A stretch of 45,961 bases of DNA from positions 1 to 45,961 of the forward strand of contig VXLY01000015.1 of NCBI GenBank assembly GCA_009841335.1. The letters run 5' to 3'. A model generated the notes under the pieces. The model saw only the letters and a program-made list of their open reading frames with translations, was not told where the DNA came from and ran no database searches. Source of the DNA: Rhodothermaceae bacterium. Its GTDB lineage: Bacteria > Bacteroidota > Rhodothermia > Rhodothermales > Bin80. The position numbers and the translations under genes are program-made. Every line of letters begins with the position of its first letter. The stretch's first letter is position 1. This document shows positions 17,446-41,821 of the stretch, piece after piece.

Positions 17446-18384
17446 CTACTGCTGCTCTTTAATGAATTCCACAAGCGCATCAATCTCCTCGGTGGACAAG
17501 TCCAAGGCGTACTGTTGGGGCATGACGGGCAAAAACCCCTCGACAACCTGCTGTGCAGGATTGACGATGGACATACGGAGATAGTTGTCGTCGGCCACCG
17601 CACTCGTTCCATCCGTGAAATTCCGCGTACTGCCCGCGAGGCCGAGAAAGGTCGGTCCCGCCAGTGTAGTTCCATCTAATGAGTGACAGGGCCAGCAACC
17701 TTCTAGCTCGTAGCTACGCTCACCCCGCTGCGCCGGGGTCAATGATCCATCATCCATATTCTCTACAAGCCAACCCTCAAAGTCGTCCTGAGATTGCACA
17801 ACAACATTTGCGTACATGTCTGAATGGGCAGTACCACAGTACTCTGCACAGACAATGTTAAACGTATCCACCCTTGTCGCCTCAAACCAGACGTAGGAAT
17901 AGCGTCCCTGCAGCACATCTGCCTTGACACGAAAAGCAGGCACAAAAAAGCTGTGAACCACGTCATCGCTGATCATGCGAAGCTTCACCGGTCGATTCAC
18001 AGGAACATGCAGGTCGGTGGATACCGCCCCGTTTGGGTAAGTGAATGTCCAGCTCCACTTACGTGCGGTAACATTGATCTCATAGGAGTTTGGAGGAGCA
18101 ATACCAAGCTCGAGAAACACCCGAAATCCCCATACAAAGACTACAGCCACGAGTATTGATGGGATTGCGATCCAGGAAGCTTCAACAAGTTTACTCTCCC
18201 GGACCGGTTCGGGACGATCGTTTTCACTACGCCGGCGATAACGCCAGGCAAACGTAACCATCGCCCCCATGACCCCCACAAATATAATAGCACTCGTAAC
18301 CAGTATGAAATAGAACAACGCATCCACATCTCCTGCAACTGTAGATGCGGATTCTGGAAGCCATATTGAGCCCTGTTCATTCAT
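17446..18384 (-). CDS. ctaC: caa3 oxidase subunit II with fused cytochrome c domain
   Basis: Subunit II accepts electrons at the CuA centre. The N-terminus has two membrane helices (about 22-46 and 70-92). The periplasmic cupredoxin domain has the CuA ligands His144, Cys179 and Cys183 (CAEYCGTAH), His187 and Met190. A C-terminal class I cytochrome c domain follows, with haem site CWPCH (230-234) and likely axial Met288 (PVMPQ). I chose the ATG at 18384 because it overlaps the SCO stop as ATGA. A longer reading from 18417 would overlap SCO by 37 nt. The fused haem domain means the enzyme may be reduced directly by ACIII or by a carrier. Confidence 0.96.
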   Translation of the reverse strand: MNEQGSIWLPESASTVAGDVDALFYFILVTSAIIFVGVMGAMVTFAWRYRRRSENDRPEPVRESKLVEASWIAIPSILVAVVFVWGFRVFLELGIAPPNSYEINVTARKWSWTFTYPNGAVSTDLHVPVNRPVKLRMISDDVVHSFFVPAFRVKADVLQGRYSYVWFEATRVDTFNIVCAEYCGTAHSDMYANVVVQSQDDFEGWLVENMDDGSLTPAQRGERSYELEGCWPCHSLDGTTLAGPTFLGLAGSTRNFTDGTSAVADDNYLRMSIVNPAQQVVEGFLPVMPQQYALDLSTEEIDALVEFIKEQQ

Positions 18385-19184
18385 GCGTGCGCAGACTTCT
18401 TGGTATCCCGTAACCACAAAAGGCTGAGCGCTGCAATCAGCACAAGCGCTGTGATCCCACCTCCGACCTGCATTGCTCGCCGGGCCGCTAGTACGTATGA
18501 ATTGGAAGTGGGATCAAACTGGAAACAATAAAGAAAAGCCCGGTCCAGCAGATTGCCAACCGTGCCGTTTGAAGCTTCAACAATGGCTGCACGCAGATCA
18601 CGCCCTCTAGGGACAAGGTCAGGCAGATAGCGGGTAATAATCCCCGTCTCGCTAAGCACGATAACAGCGGCGGGATGCGCGTATTCGTTCTGATCTTCTA
18701 CCCATTTGAACATGAAGCCTGTCGCATCGGTCAGCGCAGTAATAGACGATTCACTGCCGGTCAGAAACCTCCATTCGGCGTCTTCATGATCAATACGCCG
18801 TAGATACCGGGCACGCTGTTCGGCTGCGCGCTCCGGGGTATCCTCGGGACTGAAAGAGACGGTAATCATCTCATATGCATCCCCCGGCGCCCATGGTACA
18901 TCCTCCAGGCTTCGGGTAACGCCATCAAGGAGTACGCTGCACAGCATGGGGCAGGTGTGATAGACGAATGTCAGCACTACAGGACGCCCCCGGTTAAAAT
19001 AGTCACGCAGTTGGACCTGCTCACCTGTGGAATTTACGAACGCGAGATCAAGCGGAATCTGATCTCCCAGCCGAGGAGCAAGCCCAACCCCTTCGTAAGC
19101 GATACTGGCCTGCTCCGTCAATTGTGCATATACCGGTACCGTGCAGGCGCAAAATGCAAGTATGGCAATGTGTCCTTTGAGCAT
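18381..19184 (-). CDS. SCO1/SenC copper chaperone for CuA assembly
   Basis: SCO proteins load copper into the CuA site of oxidase subunit II. The 267-residue product has an N-terminal signal peptide (about 1-20) and a thioredoxin-like domain with the copper motif CPMLC (Cys78, Cys82) and a distal conserved His170 (EYAHPAAV). A C-terminal membrane helix (about 238-258) is followed by a positive tail. It starts 28 nt after the 121-residue protein and overlaps coxB as ATGA, so coupling to its target subunit is direct. The C-terminal anchor differs from the more usual N-terminal anchor. Confidence 0.92.
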   Translation of the reverse strand: MLKGHIAILAFCACTVPVYAQLTEQASIAYEGVGLAPRLGDQIPLDLAFVNSTGEQVQLRDYFNRGRPVVLTFVYHTCPMLCSVLLDGVTRSLEDVPWAPGDAYEMITVSFSPEDTPERAAEQRARYLRRIDHEDAEWRFLTGSESSITALTDATGFMFKWVEDQNEYAHPAAVIVLSETGIITRYLPDLVPRGRDLRAAIVEASNGTVGNLLDRAFLYCFQFDPTSNSYVLAARRAMQVGGGITALVLIAALSLLWLRDTKKSAHA

Positions 19185-34930: not shown

Positions 34931-35869
34931 CTAGAAGGTATTCTCCTCAAGGACTGCGTCAAAAGCTTCCTGGGTATCGTGGACTATGATAGTGCCGCGC
35001 ATGCTGTAGTGCGCACCACCACAAAGTTGCGCACAACTAATCTCCATTTCCGGGGCAGCATAGACTTCAGTTATGCCAGCTTCGTACAACTGAGTGAGCA
35101 CCCTGGTCGACAACCGCTGTCCTTCCTCTGCAATCATGTCCGACCCATCAGCCGTCGGGTAGTCCTGCATGGCAATCCAGCGATAAGGCGGATACTGCGC
35201 CCGACGGCGCTGATCTCCAGAGATCGGCATAGTCTTTGCCATTTCACGTCGAAACTCACTCGTGGACATTTTCGGGACAAACCAGACCGGGATTTCTAAT
35301 CCTGGAATCACATCCTGCTTTACGCGCATATTGGGCAAGGCGAAACTGTGAATCACGTCCCTAGAAGTTAGGTTTACGATAACCGGCTTGTCCTTGACTA
35401 GGTGAAGTGTATTTGTTATGATTACATCGTCGTCGCCACGGGGGTCACTCGTGTCTATCTCAATAGGTTTCGTGAGCGTGGTTTGGCCGAATTGTCCATC
35501 GTCACCCGCGTAAATCACATTCCATGCGAATTGCTCGGCAATCACATTGACGATCATGGACTCTTCCTCCGCAGGGAAATCATTCTTGATTGTAGCCCAG
35601 ATCGGAAATGCAAAACCCACTAGCAGGACCGCCTCAGCTACGACGACCCCACCCTCCAAGTACGACGAAAGCTTACTCTTAACTCCCGTATAACTCGCTT
35701 TCGGGTTGCGTTTCGCATTGAATCGCCAGAGGCAGTAAATGAAAAACGGTGCCCAGATCACAAAAAGCAGCAACATGAGCCAATGCACCCAACTCATCAT
35801 GATGTCAATTTCCGCTCCATGCCCCGAGGCGTCAAGCGGCATGCCCATCCATTTACTTAGATCATTCAT
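34931..35869 (-). CDS. coxB: Second cytochrome c oxidase subunit II, CuA domain with large insertion
   Basis: The 312-residue protein has two membrane helices (about 24-47 and 73-93) and a CuA domain. CuA ligands are His174, Cys279, Cys283 (CAQLCGGAH), His287 and Met290. The glutamate between the cysteines is glutamine here, tolerable because that ligand is a backbone carbonyl. Between VWFVP (195-199) and the first cysteine there are 79 residues, compared with about 20 normally, with helical and charged character. There is no fused haem domain and no lipobox, unlike the caa3 subunit II at 17446. The gene is last in its operon, 3 nt after the 92-residue protein, whereas coxB usually comes first. 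Confidence 0.93.
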   Translation of the reverse strand: MNDLSKWMGMPLDASGHGAEIDIMMSWVHWLMLLLFVIWAPFFIYCLWRFNAKRNPKASYTGVKSKLSSYLEGGVVVAEAVLLVGFAFPIWATIKNDFPAEEESMIVNVIAEQFAWNVIYAGDDGQFGQTTLTKPIEIDTSDPRGDDDVIITNTLHLVKDKPVIVNLTSRDVIHSFALPNMRVKQDVIPGLEIPVWFVPKMSTSEFRREMAKTMPISGDQRRRAQYPPYRWIAMQDYPTADGSDMIAEEGQRLSTRVLTQLYEAGITEVYAAPEMEISCAQLCGGAHYSMRGTIIVHDTQEAFDAVLEENTF

Positions 35870-35872
35870 GTC

Positions 35873-36151
35873 CTAGACTACGTCTGATTCACTCGATCCA
35901 TTAACAGGATCACGATATACACTGCCTGATGTTTTGACTGACTTTAATGCATTCGCGCGGCGATGAGTCTTATAAAAGAACATGCCAACACCTACGCCCA
36001 CAAACCCGATCACCGAAAGGAGCGACGCCATGGAAAATACCAGTGCTTTAATCGTTTGCTCATTTGCACCTCCTGTACCCAGACAGTACTCACAGGCCAG
36101 CGCTGGCGTTGTTATGGCCAATAGTGCTATTAAGATGATGCCACGTCTCAT
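35873..36151 (-). CDS. Small exported membrane protein with CxxC after the signal peptide
   Basis: The real start is the ATG at 36151, which overlaps the previous gene's stop as ATGA. It gives a 92-residue protein beginning MRRGIILIALLAITTPALA. Cleavage there exposes CEYC (Cys20, Cys23 of the preprotein), followed by LGTGG and a second membrane helix (about 35-58), then a polar tail. The two close cysteines on the outer face suggest copper or thiol chemistry, perhaps in CuA or CuB assembly. I do not recognise a named family. It sits between a 66-residue membrane protein and coxB of the second oxidase. Confidence 0.7.
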   Translation of the reverse strand: MRRGIILIALLAITTPALACEYCLGTGGANEQTIKALVFSMASLLSVIGFVGVGVGMFFYKTHRRANALKSVKTSGSVYRDPVNGSSESDVV

Positions 36152-36348
36152 ACCAAGTGCTTGATTTTTCGCCAAAATGTCACTCCGTACAAAACAAGGA
36201 CAATTCCCGAAATCAGTGCGATCAATCCTATCCCCGCCATAACACCGCTGGCATCTGCAATTCCACGGTTCAATGCCCATAAACCGAGCAGGAAGCTCAG
36301 CACTGTTGCAAAAACAATAAACACAATATGAACCGTCCTAAGCGACAT
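36148..36348 (-). CDS. Tiny two-helix membrane protein in the second oxidase operon
   Basis: The 66-residue product consists almost entirely of two hydrophobic helices (about 6-26 and 35-57) with a basic C-terminal tail (WRKIKHLV). Its start overlaps the coxD stop by 11 nt and its own stop overlaps the next start as ATGA, so it is translationally coupled on both sides. Short hydrophobic subunits are common additions to oxidases, and an accessory or assembly role is the natural guess. No family was recognised. Confidence 0.65.
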   Translation of the reverse strand: MSLRTVHIVFIVFATVLSFLLGLWALNRGIADASGVMAGIGLIALISGIVLVLYGVTFWRKIKHLV

Positions 36349-36682
36349 GACTGGACAGAATCAACTTAGCAAGGGTTGCGATATCCTCCTGATCGGCGTG
36401 TGCACCTATGAAGAGCGCGAACATGCCAACCAAGAAAACCGCTGCCGACAAGAGCACCCATAGGATCACCTGTTTTTCACTGATCAGATGCATGAAATAC
36501 AGTGCAACTAGAGCCGCCTTAACGGTGGCAATTGCCAAAGCTACCAGTAACGCCGGTGTGAAGGGCATGTGCAGATAAGAAACTCCAACAGTCACAACAG
36601 TCAGTACCGCAAGTGCAATGAAGACCGTGATGTACACTCTTACGTGTCTCTTCACGTCTTCCAGGGTCATTTCTTCGGCCAT
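36338..36682 (-). CDS. coxD: Second oxidase subunit IV
   Basis: The 114-residue protein has three membrane helices (about 16-37, 41-64, 72-92). It carries the family phrases HVRVYITVFIALAVLTVVTV and VKAALVALYFMHLISEKQVI seen in prokaryotic oxidase subunit IV (COX4_pro). It follows coxC by 18 nt and overlaps the 66-residue gene. It is the counterpart of the gene at 14778, but the two sequences are clearly different, so the operons are not recent duplicates. Confidence 0.88.
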   Translation of the reverse strand: MAEEMTLEDVKRHVRVYITVFIALAVLTVVTVGVSYLHMPFTPALLVALAIATVKAALVALYFMHLISEKQVILWVLLSAAVFLVGMFALFIGAHADQEDIATLAKLILSSHVA

Positions 36683-36700: not shown

Positions 36701-37339
36701 TCAAATCAAATAGATCGTCGGGAATAGAAATATCCACACCAAGTCCACGAAATGCCAATATAAACCGGCAACTTCTATGCGATTGGTGAAGTGTGCTTTG
36801 TCACGTGCTGTTCCTCGTTTCCAAAGCTTTGTTCCTGGCCCCCAGAAATAGGCATTTACTAATATCCCACCCGTGACGTGAATTGCATGCAGTCCAGTAA
36901 GTACGAAGTAGACGCCTAGGAAATTATTTGTCGACGCATACCAGTGATGATCGAATTTTTCGCCATACTCAAAACTTTTTACGACGAGAAAGCCCAAGGC
37001 AAGCAGGATAGTAAGTCCCATGTAGAGTTTATAGCGATCGAAACGATCCATTTTGAGCGAAGCCCAAGCCATGACCATCGTAACACTGGAAGCAATAAGG
37101 ATCATCGTGTTCAGTGTTGCGAGCGGTACGTTCAGGATCTCGTCTGCGCGCTCAGCCATGACCTCCGTTCCATACATCATCATGCCCGGCCATGCATCCG
37201 CGCCGATGCGCAGGAATACATAAGCCGCGAACAGGCCGCCAAAAAGCATGACCTCTGAAGCTAGAAAGAGCCAAATGCCCAGCTTCGCATTGTTTACGCC
37301 AGTATCTGGGCGTGCCTGTACCTCGTAGGGTATCTGCAT
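36701..37339 (-). CDS. coxC: Second oxidase subunit III
   Basis: The 212-residue subunit III shows [40 protein letters not shown] and [20 protein letters not shown] in order, the same landmarks as in the caa3 subunit III but with different intervening sequence. About five membrane helices are predicted. The ATG at 37339 is 10 nt after coxA. Its position between coxA and coxD is canonical. Confidence 0.95.
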
Positions 37340-37349
37340 TTTGGTTTAC

Positions 37350-39110
37350 TTAGGATTCAACAGATTTGGCAGTATCAGACCCGGATAGAGCAACAGGCAC
37401 ATCCTGTGGACAAAAATCCGACTCATGGCCGGGTACGCTGTACTCGTATGGGCCATGATACACCGTAGGAACAGTAGCAAAGTTGCCATGCCCAATTGGG
37501 GGTGTCGGGGCAGCTGACCATTCAAGCGTCGTAGACTCCCAATGATTACTCTTCTCCACCTTCCTGCCACGCTTGATGCTCATAAAGAAATTAATGATGA
37601 AGGGCAATTGGAAAAGTAACAGAATGAAGGCGGACACGGACATGACAACGTTGTAGTGGATCACTCCCTCAGCAAAGCTATAGGTAAGCCCACCATCAAA
37701 CAGACGACGTGATACACCGGGGAGCCCTTGAATGAGCATCGGAAAAAAGATACCGTTCATCGCAACTAGAGAACCCCAGAAGTGAATCCGACCCAGCGTT
37801 TCGTTCATGGTTCGCCCGGTAACCTTTGGGAACCAATAATAAATTCCAGCAAAGAGTGCAAAGATCGTCCCCGGTGCTACCACGTAGTGAAAATGCCCAA
37901 TCACATAATAGGTATCGTGCAGCGGAATATCGGTCGGGGCTAAACCAAGCGGAAGTCCCGTGAGACCACCGATACCGAACATAGGGAGGAACCCCAGAGC
38001 AAACCACATTGCGGTATTAAATCGGATTGATCCTCCGAAGAGCGTTATCATGAGTGCCGACAGGATGACGACCGACGGTATTGAGATGATCATCGTCGTG
38101 ACCTGGAAGAATGCACTGATCGTGGTCCCCATGCCCGTGATAAACATGTGGTGCGCCCAGACAATAAAAGAAAAGAAGCCTAGGAATATTAGTGACGCCA
38201 CCATGAGTCGGTAGCCCCACAGCGGCTTACGGGTATTATTGGCCAGGATCTCTGATACAATCCCCATTGCTGGGAGAATCAGAACATAAACTTCTGGGTG
38301 TGCTAGAAACCAGAATAAGTGCTGCCAAAGCAACGGGCTCCCGCCACCCGCAACTTCCAGCGGTCCATCGGCGGTAACAAGCCCACTTGGCAAAAAGAAG
38401 CTGGTATCCAGGAGTCGGTCTGCTAATTGCAGAAAACCCGCCGCTTCCAGTGGAGGAAAAGCCAACAACAGCAGGAAAGCAGTAATAAACTGAGCCCAGA
38501 CAAAGAAAGGCAGTCTGAAAAAAGTCATGCCCTCCGCACGAAGCTGGATGATCGTTACGATGAAGTTAACCGCCCCCAGCAATGAAGATGTGATCAGTAA
38601 GACCATTCCCCAGAGCCACATGGTTTGTCCCATGGTCTCAATGTCAGCCAACGGGGGATATGAGGTCCAGCCAGCTTTGGCAGCTCCTTCAGGTACAAAA
38701 AAGCTCGACAGCATAACTACACCACCCCAGAAGTAGAAGTGGTAGCTGGCCATGTTCAGTCTCGGGAAGGCCATGTCCGGCGCACCGATCTGCAGTGGAA
38801 CCACATAGTTACCAAACGCTCCGACCGCCAGGGGAACGATGCCCAGAAAAACCATGATCGTGCCATGCATAGCACCGAACTGGTTGTACATCTCCGGTGT
38901 TAAGGCTCCGAGAAGCGGGATTTCCACTCCGGGCGAAGCCAATTGCCACCGCATGAGCAACATTAACCCGAACCCGAACAACAAGAACAGCAGAGCAGTG
39001 AACCCATACTGGAGGCCGATCACCTTATGATCGGTAGAAAACCAATATCTGCGCCAAAAACCCTCTTTGTGGGCCGAATGCGCGTCCGAATGGGAGTGAC
39101 CTTCTTCCAT
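37350..39110 (-). CDS. coxA: Second oxidase subunit I, A1-type
   Basis: This is the catalytic haem-copper subunit of the second oxidase (586 residues from the ATG at 39110; a GTG one codon earlier is also in frame). Haem and CuB ligands are seen in AMHGTIM, AHPEVYVLILP (His272, Glu274, Tyr276 counting from the GTG), AHHMF (His321-322) and GHFHYV. The intact glutamate of HPEVY marks an A1-type D-channel, in contrast to the A2-type subunit I at 15802. The N-terminus is rich in histidine (GHSHSDAHSAH), a possible metal-binding tail. It follows the cupredoxin-like lipoprotein gene by 42 nt. Confidence 0.96.
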   Translation of the reverse strand: MEEGHSHSDAHSAHKEGFWRRYWFSTDHKVIGLQYGFTALLFLLFGFGLMLLMRWQLASPGVEIPLLGALTPEMYNQFGAMHGTIMVFLGIVPLAVGAFGNYVVPLQIGAPDMAFPRLNMASYHFYFWGGVVMLSSFFVPEGAAKAGWTSYPPLADIETMGQTMWLWGMVLLITSSLLGAVNFIVTIIQLRAEGMTFFRLPFFVWAQFITAFLLLLAFPPLEAAGFLQLADRLLDTSFFLPSGLVTADGPLEVAGGGSPLLWQHLFWFLAHPEVYVLILPAMGIVSEILANNTRKPLWGYRLMVASLIFLGFFSFIVWAHHMFITGMGTTISAFFQVTTMIISIPSVVILSALMITLFGGSIRFNTAMWFALGFLPMFGIGGLTGLPLGLAPTDIPLHDTYYVIGHFHYVVAPGTIFALFAGIYYWFPKVTGRTMNETLGRIHFWGSLVAMNGIFFPMLIQGLPGVSRRLFDGGLTYSFAEGVIHYNVVMSVSAFILLLFQLPFIINFFMSIKRGRKVEKSNHWESTTLEWSAAPTPPIGHGNFATVPTVYHGPYEYSVPGHESDFCPQDVPVALSGSDTAKSVES

Positions 39111-39152
39111 CACGCGAATACCTTGATTGTAGGACTGTAAGGGATAGTGCGG

Positions 39153-39914
39153 CTATTGATAGGTAATGCTGGCTTCCACCATACCACCATCAGCAACCAT
39201 CACATCCATCGTCTGCTCTCCAAGTTGCTCATGCCATGCGGTGACCGTGTAATTGCCATCTGGAAGACCCGAGATGCTGAATGCACCGCTTGCGTCGGTT
39301 GTCGCAAAATAGGGATGATCCAGTACCCCAATGTAAGCCTGCATCCAGCTGTGCACATCACACTTGACCGAAATCATAACCTCAGGTACTAGAAAGCTTT
39401 TCTCCAGATAATCTCCGATTCCGGGGGTGGACTCGTTGAATCCCCGGTTATCCTCGGGAACCGGGTGAACATTATGCTGGAAAGGATCACTGTTCTCAAT
39501 ACGAATAGTTTGTCCTGTCTGCATCCCCATCACACGGGGAGTATACATGCATCCTTCCTGATCCATGACTACCGGCGCCGTTGGAGTCGTATATGCATAC
39601 CCTTCGGGCAATCCTGCACTTACGTACACGAATACGTTCTGGAGCGCACCATCGTTGACGATCATGTCTTCGCTGAGCGCCGCCTCAGCACGCTCATCGG
39701 TGCAGTCATCATTCATCCGCACTGGCGTGCGTTCAGAAGGTTCACCTGTGAATGTTACCATCCCGGAGACACTACCTGTCCCCATCGCGGTCATTTCCTC
39801 GGCCGGCATAGCGTCCCCGCTGTCGGATTCGCCGTCTGTAGCGGTATCACCGCCGCCACCACCGCAGGCAGCAAGCAAGAGAACCAATAGCATGGAGATT
39901 GCTGTGAGTCGCAT
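39153..39914 (-). CDS. Cupredoxin-like lipoprotein leading the second oxidase operon
   Basis: I start this at the ATG at 39914, giving 253 residues with a lipobox LAAC (Cys17) followed by a Gly/Asp/Met-rich linker. The central domain has a plastocyanin-like look: IRIENSDPFQHNVHP (His147, His150), then ISVKCDVHSWMQAYIGV (Cys185, His188, Met191), which could bind copper. A carboxypeptidase-regulatory-like beta domain follows (ATTDASGAFSISGLPDGNYT). Similar proteins are found beside oxidase genes. As first gene of the operon it may donate electrons or deliver copper to subunit II. A reading from 39962 would put 16 hydrophilic residues before the signal peptide. Confidence 0.8.
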   Translation of the reverse strand: MRLTAISMLLVLLLAACGGGGGDTATDGESDSGDAMPAEEMTAMGTGSVSGMVTFTGEPSERTPVRMNDDCTDERAEAALSEDMIVNDGALQNVFVYVSAGLPEGYAYTTPTAPVVMDQEGCMYTPRVMGMQTGQTIRIENSDPFQHNVHPVPEDNRGFNESTPGIGDYLEKSFLVPEVMISVKCDVHSWMQAYIGVLDHPYFATTDASGAFSISGLPDGNYTVTAWHEQLGEQTMDVMVADGGMVEASITYQ

Positions 39915-40050
39915 CGAAATTCTGGTCTGATTAGAGGTTTCTTCTTCGTTTAGACAGCCCATTTACATAAGCCGACGCGCGAATATACGCTTTCTTGGGC
40001 AATCTATCGTGTACTCCTTGATTCGCGCGAAAATCTGTACCTTTTGAGTT

Positions 40051-40410
40051 ATGGATTGGGTATGGACACTTTATAAAAAATACATCACGAAGGGACTAGT
40101 AGCCAAGGGAAATTCTGATCCCACTGAAGCCGAACTTGAAGCTGCCTTCATGAAAGCACTAGCTGGATCCTATGTTACGGTTCTTGTCCAGGAACCATGG
40201 ATGAACTCCGTACGCTTCAAGGGCCTAGCCAGGGGAAACCTGTCTGAAATGACCGACCTAATAAGGGATCCCATGACTTGGCTTCAAGAGCGTTACGGTG
40301 GTGGTAAATTTAAGCTTAATTTTCATGAGGGGTGGAATTTTGTCGCTACGAAAAACTTCAAACCGGAGGGACCACCTCTCTGGAAAGACGCCCCGGAAAT
40401 CTCTTTCTAA
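40051..40410 (+). CDS. Unknown 119-residue protein
   Basis: The gene is divergent from the second oxidase operon with an 88 to 136-bp spacer, depending on the start used there. The product has no signal peptide or membrane helix. It begins MDWVWTLYKKYITKGLVAKG and has a C-terminal beta-rich segment YGGGKFKLNFHEGWNFV ending in KPEGPPLWKD. I do not recognise the family. The next gene starts at the base after its stop codon, so the two are translationally coupled and probably function together. Confidence 0.6.
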   Translation: MDWVWTLYKKYITKGLVAKGNSDPTEAELEAAFMKALAGSYVTVLVQEPWMNSVRFKGLARGNLSEMTDLIRDPMTWLQERYGGGKFKLNFHEGWNFVATKNFKPEGPPLWKDAPEISF

Positions 40411-40923
40411 GTGGAAGCAATCAGCCCCCTACACCCCAGTGACCGCGAACGCGTGGTAGTATTTCTGGGTTTTCTCACTAGTGAGGAATGCCGCAAGGCT
40501 TGTTGTGAGCACGCGCAACCGGAAGTGCTGGCTGCAACACTAACCAAACTCTGGTTTGAAGAGATTTACATCCCCGGCGAAACCGCAGTTGAAGGTATCA
40601 AGCCCGTACCGGCCCCTGAGGACTGCTCCCGCTTTAATGCCTGTTTCAGTGCCGAAGAGCTTACCATGCTGGAACGGTTCCATGGTTTCTTTGAACTTCG
40701 ATTAAACTTTCTGACCAACCAGGTTCACGGGCGGGCATTTTTTCCAGACAATGACAGCTGGCGAGGTGTCCTCCAGCATGCGCGATACGTCCTCGCGGAA
40801 CTTGACCCAAACCCCGAATGGCTGCGCACGATGCTGGAAGCACTGATCCAAAAACTTCGGGCGGGGCAGCTGATGGAAGGACTGCGAACCCCCCGCCAGC
40901 TTTTGTCACCCTGTGACACATGA
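40411..40923 (+). CDS. Unknown 170-residue protein with GTG start, coupled to the gene before
   Basis: The frame begins with GTG immediately after the TAA of the 119-residue gene (TAAGTG). No ATG is available until about residue 84, so the GTG is the likely start. The product is soluble and mostly helical, with a Cys cluster EECRKACCEHA (about 26-36), then FHGFFELRLNFLTN, and a Leu-rich C-terminal helix. No known domain was recognised. Codon use looks like the neighbours, which supports it as a real gene. It is followed by a 390-bp non-coding stretch. Confidence 0.55.
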   Translation: MEAISPLHPSDRERVVVFLGFLTSEECRKACCEHAQPEVLAATLTKLWFEEIYIPGETAVEGIKPVPAPEDCSRFNACFSAEELTMLERFHGFFELRLNFLTNQVHGRAFFPDNDSWRGVLQHARYVLAELDPNPEWLRTMLEALIQKLRAGQLMEGLRTPRQLLSPCDT

Positions 40924-41314: not shown

Positions 41315-41821
41315 ATGAAATTTTTTCCATACTCAGCACTGATTTTAGCCTTCGCCTTTGCATTTGCGGCATGTGGCGGAAGTGAGCAAGCTCCCGAATC
41401 CGAAATGGAAATGGAAGTCGGAGCCGAAGAAACTGAGATTACTGGCGTTTCGATAACCATCCAGCCCGACGGCGACAATATGATGTATGCCGAGGAGACG
41501 ATCACTGTTACGGCAGGAACAGAGGTTACTCTGGTTTTGGAAAACACGGCCACTGCTCCTGTAATGATTCATAACATTGTCGTGCTCAATTCGGATTCTG
41601 ATGAAGAGGCTACTCGGGTTGGTATGGCTGCGCTAGCAGCAGGGGAAGCTATGGACTATGTGCCGGAAGACGATGCCATACTTGCCTACACTCCAATGGC
41701 AAATCCAGGCGAGACCGTTGAGGTGACCTTCACAGCTCCCTCTGAGCCTGGAAATTACCGATTTATTTGCACGTATCCCGGACATTTTGCCACAATGCAA
41801 GGAGTCCTGGTTGTTCAGTGA
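41315..41821 (+). CDS. Auracyanin/azurin-like blue copper lipoprotein
   Basis: The 168-residue product has a lipobox FAAC (Cys20), an acidic Met/Glu linker, and a type-1 copper cupredoxin domain. Likely copper ligands are His86 (MIHNIVV), Cys152, His157 and Met161 in CTYPGHFATM, the C-x4-H-x3-M spacing of azurin and auracyanin. Membrane-anchored auracyanins carry electrons from alternative complex III in Chloroflexus. By analogy this protein may link ACIII at 19589-27303 with one of the two oxidases here. It is monocistronic, with a non-coding leader upstream and a GC-rich inverted repeat downstream. Confidence 0.88.
   Translation: MKFFPYSALILAFAFAFAACGGSEQAPESEMEMEVGAEETEITGVSITIQPDGDNMMYAEETITVTAGTEVTLVLENTATAPVMIHNIVVLNSDSDEEATRVGMAALAAGEAMDYVPEDDAILAYTPMANPGETVEVTFTAPSEPGNYRFICTYPGHFATMQGVLVVQ

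Follow-up and report, generated by a model that had tools for sequence, protein, structure and literature searches.

A widespread pair of small membrane proteins tied to one branch of cytochrome c oxidases, with apparent selenocysteine homologues in Planctomycetota

The supply of copper to the CuA site of cytochrome oxidases has been solved for only a few model bacteria, and many phyla are without the known copper donors. Thiol proteins are an already known kind of factor in CuA assembly; in other bacteria, TlpA reduces ScoI and Cox2 while pCuAC inserts the copper (PMC6696091). The window analyzed here, a whole stretch of 45,961 nucleotides from a Rhodothermaceae bacterium, contains a first (caa3) and a second oxidase operon, and the second encodes two small proteins, here called M and C, that invite comparison with these systems. 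Like SCO1/SenC (PF02630), which serves CuA and neighbours C in many loci, C is predicted to present a periplasmic Cys pair on a membrane anchor. SCO, however, combines CxxxC and a distal His in a thioredoxin fold, whereas C has CxxC, no domain and no conserved His. The TlpA-type reductants (Bradyrhizobium; PMC6696091), whose proposed targets are ScoI and Cox2, also carry a membrane-anchored periplasmic CxxC, as predicted for C, but do so on a thioredoxin fold, whereas C is a short one-helix peptide with no thioredoxin-family match. A possible role as Cu(I) donor for CuA is shared with pCuAC (PF04314) and Cox17, yet the cupredoxin fold and Met/His ligands of the former and the soluble twin-Cys helices of the latter are both unlike C. 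CtaM/DUF420 (PF04238), a small membrane assembly factor of aa3-type oxidases whose gene often adjoins the C-like genes of Planctomycetota, differs from C in its four TM helices, its unrelated sequence and its lack of CxxC. M, a two-helix hairpin encoded right after coxD, resembles the small subunits of bacterial aa3 oxidases (CoxD/COX4_pro), but it has no sequence match to PF03626 or to any solved oxidase chain.

The second oxidase operon lies on the minus strand of the window in the order cupredoxin-like lipoprotein, coxA, coxC, coxD, M, C, coxB (Table 1). The preliminary description had reported two small open reading frames with overlapping ends, and both are present as claimed: M overlaps the end of coxD by 11 nt, and the start codon of C lies inside an ATGA shared with the stop codon of M. 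C and coxB do not overlap and are separated by a gap of 3 nt. The same frame and motif in relatives, together with recurrence across phyla, confirmed that both are real genes. The lipoprotein at the operon head, which could be an electron donor or a copper protein, has counterparts heading the same operon in five further loci (L065, L085, L076, L098 and L110). Near the operon there is also an unnamed protein pair (40051-40410, MDWVW..., and 40411-40923), with counterparts in a Calditrichia record (L076, at 94-459 and 665-1180), and an azurin-like lipoprotein (...YRFICTYPGHFATMQG) is encoded on the plus strand at 41315-41821, near the operon start.

Table 1 Features of the second oxidase operon and the SCO gene of the first operon in the window
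Feature	Position	Strand	Basis
M, 66 aa, ATG start, MSLRTVHIVFI...	36148..36348	-	ORF; alignment of homologues; AlphaFold hairpin
C, 92 aa	35873..36151	-	ORF; homologues with invariant CxxC; AlphaFold
CEYC codons, residues 20-23 of C	36083..36094	-	Translation; Sec homologues
coxD / cytochrome oxidase subunit IV	36338..36682	-	PF03626 COX4_pro, TIGR02229
coxB / subunit II, CuA loop CAQLCGGAHYSM, ~85-aa insert	34931..35869	-	PF00116; co-occurrence with M and C
coxC / subunit III	36701..37339	-	PF00510
coxA / subunit I	37350..39113	-	PF00115
Cupredoxin-like lipoprotein (H...KCDVHSWM), C-terminal CarboxypepD_reg domain, operon head	39153..39962	-	PF13620
SCO1/SenC of first (caa3) oxidase operon	18381..19184	-	PF02630; genome search

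Analysis of C placed its CEYC motif where it had been described, immediately behind a hydrophobic signal sequence with an A-x-A end. A single transmembrane segment follows at residues ~34-60, and then KTHRR (basic tail). The AlphaFold model consists of two helices only, with no globular domain. The cysteines, whose loss in homologues the preliminary description had named as evidence against its own reading, proved to be invariant in 79/79 C homologues (the loci of the Cox2-profile scan described below) at a mean column identity of 27%. All 79 have a small residue ahead of the first Cys, Ala in 71 of them, and the -3 position is mostly Ala or Val (Ala in 50/79). This small residue and the -3/-1 pattern suggest cleavage by signal peptidase I, and such a cut would put the first Cys at the new N-terminus of C. 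A lipoprotein signal was considered and rejected, as the Ala frequencies at -3 and -1 fit signal peptidase I better than a lipobox. Only one Cys pair is found in 69 of the 79 homologues, and a His after the motif is absent in 41/79, so that there is no conserved His. For M, AlphaFold predicts a hairpin of two helices (pLDDT 94.9); His7 and Tyr54 of M are invariant in an alignment of 63 homologues.

Searches of Pfam, NCBIfam and the PDB with single proteins and with profiles gave no match for C or M other than chance matches of membrane segments, and no solved structure, oxidases included, was related to either. A Foldseek comparison of the M hairpin with the PDB yielded nothing informative, which is to be expected of a two-helix protein. 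C did not match PF02630 at E<=1, nor did this family appear among the leading matches of 69 C homologues, and the thioredoxin-family profiles of Pfam and NCBIfam were likewise unmatched by C. Weak matches of five of the 69 homologues to NCBIfam NF052406 (NOVBLXIJ family nitrogen cycling protein) had a best E of 0.0065; they fell well short of the cut-off and are probably due to chance. No description of M or C was found in the literature searched. Judged from sequence, C and M are a widespread unnamed pair tied to one branch of cytochrome oxidases.

This linkage was first of all apparent within the order, where C is present, in the same frame and with the same motif, in 21 of 59 genomes (own genome counted). 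A Cox2 profile of the M/C-linked subfamily found its match in the same 21 genomes and in 0 of the 38 others (Fisher p = 2e-16, which is only nominal because the genomes are related), and three members of the genus lack both C and the M/C-linked Cox2. The earlier proposal that M and C belong to the oxidase is borne out by this co-occurrence. For a wider sample, named genomes were scanned with the Cox2 profile, a query that avoids picking loci by the presence of C, and the best 80 of 464 relatives were examined. These 80 loci span Rhodothermia, Ignavibacteria, Calditrichia, Neomarinimicrobiota, Acidobacteria, Planctomycetota and others. C adjoins cox genes in 79 of them and M was detected in 76; at the sole locus without C (L071), just ~280 nt upstream were available. 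The commonest order among these best 80 loci is coxD-M-C-coxB. The preliminary description had asked whether the pair always sits between coxD and coxB, and this holds as the usual arrangement only: at five loci (L074, L097, L110, L118 and L120), belonging to Planctomycetota and one Alphaproteobacteria-labelled record, coxB comes first and the M-C pair last, after coxD. Weak matches at L041 and L042, close to ccm-type genes, and at L043 were discarded as false positives. Together, M and C make up a conserved module that belongs to a single branch of the A-type cytochrome c oxidases, those with a CuA site.

Such a module might simply consist of permanent small oxidase subunits, with the CxxC acting as a structural disulfide or as an electron-donor dock near CuA and having no assembly role. 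Both genes sit between subunit genes, a place that fits a structural subunit and counts against reading C as an assembly factor; 42 of 73 M-C pairs overlap or abut; co-occurrence with Cox2 is strict; neither protein has a catalytic domain; and the invariant His7 and Tyr54 of M would suit a subunit. We nevertheless regard this explanation as a possibility of clearly lesser likelihood, as no relative of M or C occurs in solved structures, oxidases included, and as the Planctomycetota homologues described below speak against it on two counts.

When Planctomycetota were searched with the C profile, matches with one internal UGA came up. In dozens of species this UGA falls exactly on the first or the second Cys of CxxC, with a signal sequence before it and a TM helix after it. 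A profile of this Planctomycetota branch matched 107 of 392 Planctomycetota genomes, and the distinct loci that were read comprise 34 UxxC, 12 CxxU and 33 CxxC forms. Comparison of the branch with the C profile by hhalign gave 98.7% (E 2.4e-16) and the same architecture, a score to which shared signal/TM composition contributes too and which is not an independent test of homology because it was the C profile that had led to the branch. Sequences after the UGA were examined with a published SECIS model (early G in a loop of 3-9 nt, 16-37 nt past the UGA, <= -7.5 kcal/mol; PMC13188914). Since the SECIS hairpin was not in every full 48-nt MFE fold, a local stem-loop model was used with the Cys homologues as control. 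A hairpin of SECIS type follows the UGA in 28/34 UxxC and 10/12 CxxU genes; at the corresponding sites of the Cys homologues, such hairpins occur in 3/33 and 4/33. In 26 UxxC genes with a GGUC loop, selected by loop and not by stem, five of the six stem pairs change on both sides; stem covariation is 0.405 versus 0.139 +/- 0.024 in shuffled data, and slid registers reach at most 0.146. SelB scored over the cut-off in 39 of 46 Sec genomes versus 20 of 52 Cys-only genomes (p = 3.5e-6). The remaining 7 of the 46 have no full SelB match over the cut-off, and one of these seven, genome G667, has a SelB fragment ending at a contig end; the Planctomycetota genomes are partly fragmented, so that SelB or neighbour genes can be hidden.

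Were the UGA a real stop, whether through pseudogene formation, other recoding or assembly error, the selenocysteine argument would fail. The seven genomes without a full SelB, and the mostly unfinished state of the genomes, lean that way, but we consider a real stop very unlikely in view of the precise placement of the UGA at one or other of the two Cys codons across dozens of species, between a signal sequence and a TM helix, of hairpins that covary in register and are rare in Cys homologues, and of the SelB association. The Planctomycetota homologues of C instead look like an unlisted UxxC/CxxU selenoprotein family. They share with the catalogued selenoproteins the UxxC/CxxU forms, a SECIS directly after the UGA and the existence of Cys homologues elsewhere (PMC13188914). 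Among the 119 prokaryotic selenoprotein families in Table 1 of that 2026 catalogue, which lists UGC-type Sec forms of TlpA, none is recognisable as an oxidase-linked C peptide, and NCBIfam release 20 has no entry naming a C-type selenoprotein family. A planctomycete genome paper (PMC4807772) places its selenoprotein candidates in a supplementary table, and an earlier unnamed sighting of C-type selenoproteins among those candidates is possible.

Most Sec cases sit in the diverged Planctomycetota branch, and L159, where ctaB adjoins, is the only one within an M-C pair. Planctomycetota C-like genes are near SCO and/or DUF420 in 39 of 70 loci (a regex-level count); they also follow cox3-cox4 in L219, L228 and L229 and cox1-ctaB in L223, while CxxU loci such as L238, L242 and L249-L251 show no recognisable oxidase neighbour within the short stretch fetched. 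Apparent SCO-DUF420 fusions lie directly upstream of C-like genes at three Planctomycetota loci (L160, L169 and L179). Genome G722 carries two copies: a Cys-type C accompanied by M and cox genes (L154) and, elsewhere, a Sec-type one (L229).

Because Sec replaces either Cys in these homologues, both cysteines of C are likely to be working thiols. New selenoproteins arise mostly at redox-active Cys (PMC1794560). Some metal-binding proteins (MerT, cation-ATPases and the CopZ family; PMC13188914) contain Sec as well, and for this reason its presence cannot tell Cu(I) binding apart from disulfide exchange. A purely structural disulfide in which Sec takes the place of one or other Cys would be unusual, and the movement of the Planctomycetota gene from structural genes to SCO/DUF420 is a second point against M and C being permanent subunits.

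The preliminary description had noted that the second operon has no SCO gene and had suggested that C might take over the SCO job. Its observation is correct for the operon itself; its suggestion did not stand up to the genome data. A genome search found a single SCO in the own genome, that of the first oxidase operon in the same window (Table 1), and SCO is present in 16/16 C-bearing genomes tested. It lies within the same operon as C in L085 (11087-11704) and L076 (7906-8547), and beside C in many Planctomycetota. A takeover of CuA maturation in the second oxidase by C, in place of SCO, has in its favour this operon without SCO and a CxxC on the predicted periplasmic side. It is unsupported, and in our estimate most improbable, because SCO co-occurs with C and because C has no thioredoxin fold, no PF02630 match and no globular domain. 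The SCO of the first operon is the probable partner of C. A different pattern was seen for pCuAC, which was found in 0/21 C-bearing relatives versus 12/37 relatives without C (p = 0.002; confounded by phylogeny) and in 3/14 C-bearing genomes from further away. Given that SCO co-occurs with C and that the 21 C-bearing relatives have no pCuAC, pCuAC or TlpA is more likely than SCO to be the factor that C stands in for.

With SCO as probable partner, we lean, by little more than an even chance, towards C as a membrane-tethered thiol/selenol factor that would help SCO build the CuA site of Cox2, with M as an accessory subunit. CuA maturation is the likeliest target because of the operon place of C next to Cox2 and with SCO. 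Signal-peptide cleavage would expose the CxxC at or near the N-terminus of C, ~15 residues above the single membrane helix and facing the periplasm. Tethered at the oxidase with Cox2 and SCO as its targets, C might hold and pass Cu(I), might keep the cysteines of CuA or SCO reduced, or might do both; elsewhere this job is done by pCuAC, TlpA or Cox17. Copper handover by the CxxC to the CuA site of the neighbouring Cox2, as previously suggested, is plausible. For M, the likeliest role is that of a small accessory subunit with two helices, or of a docking partner, and it may hold C in place.

The CxxC might alternatively bind another metal or cofactor as a dimer (Zn, Fe-S, or a heme-handling intermediate, for example with CtaA/CtaB) and not copper. 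The motif CPxC[FY]G does resemble a zinc knuckle half-site, and CtaA and CtaB genes are operon neighbours. There is, however, a single Cys pair in 69/79 homologues and the motif is not a CxxCH heme site; to our knowledge, Sec is not typical of zinc sites either. We judge binding of another metal or cofactor improbable.

What is new in the C family is a one-helix peptide without a fold, its strict link to one oxidase branch and its Sec members. More broadly, and with somewhat less than an even chance of being right, C may found an unnamed, phylum-spanning family of membrane-tethered thiol/selenol peptides that act in CuA maturation with SCO, donating copper or serving as reductant where there is no pCuAC; its Planctomycetota members would then be the first selenoproteins with the assembly of a respiratory oxidase as their dedicated task. 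As a conserved thiol protein inside an oxidase operon, with Sec in some lineages, C is a concrete candidate for the missing CuA step. If this is true, the list of selenoproteins would also gain a family whose members come out truncated, or are overlooked, in standard annotation, since it takes UGA for a stop.

The Cox2 proteins of the M/C-linked branch have features of their own. The CuA loop reads CxQLCG in all 63 readable Cox2 sequences from the 80 loci examined, compared with CAEYCG in the caa3 Cox2 of the window, and the branch (L044-L123 and the window) has Gln in this loop where the canonical residue is Glu. The ~85-residue insert of the window Cox2 lies between the CuA His strand and the CAQLCG loop. 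Its motif, GxxLxxxVxxxLxxAGIxxV, is repeat-like and resembles RNA polymerase beta' segments. The insert also occurs in Ignavibacteria relatives (L036-L038) and is larger in L039.
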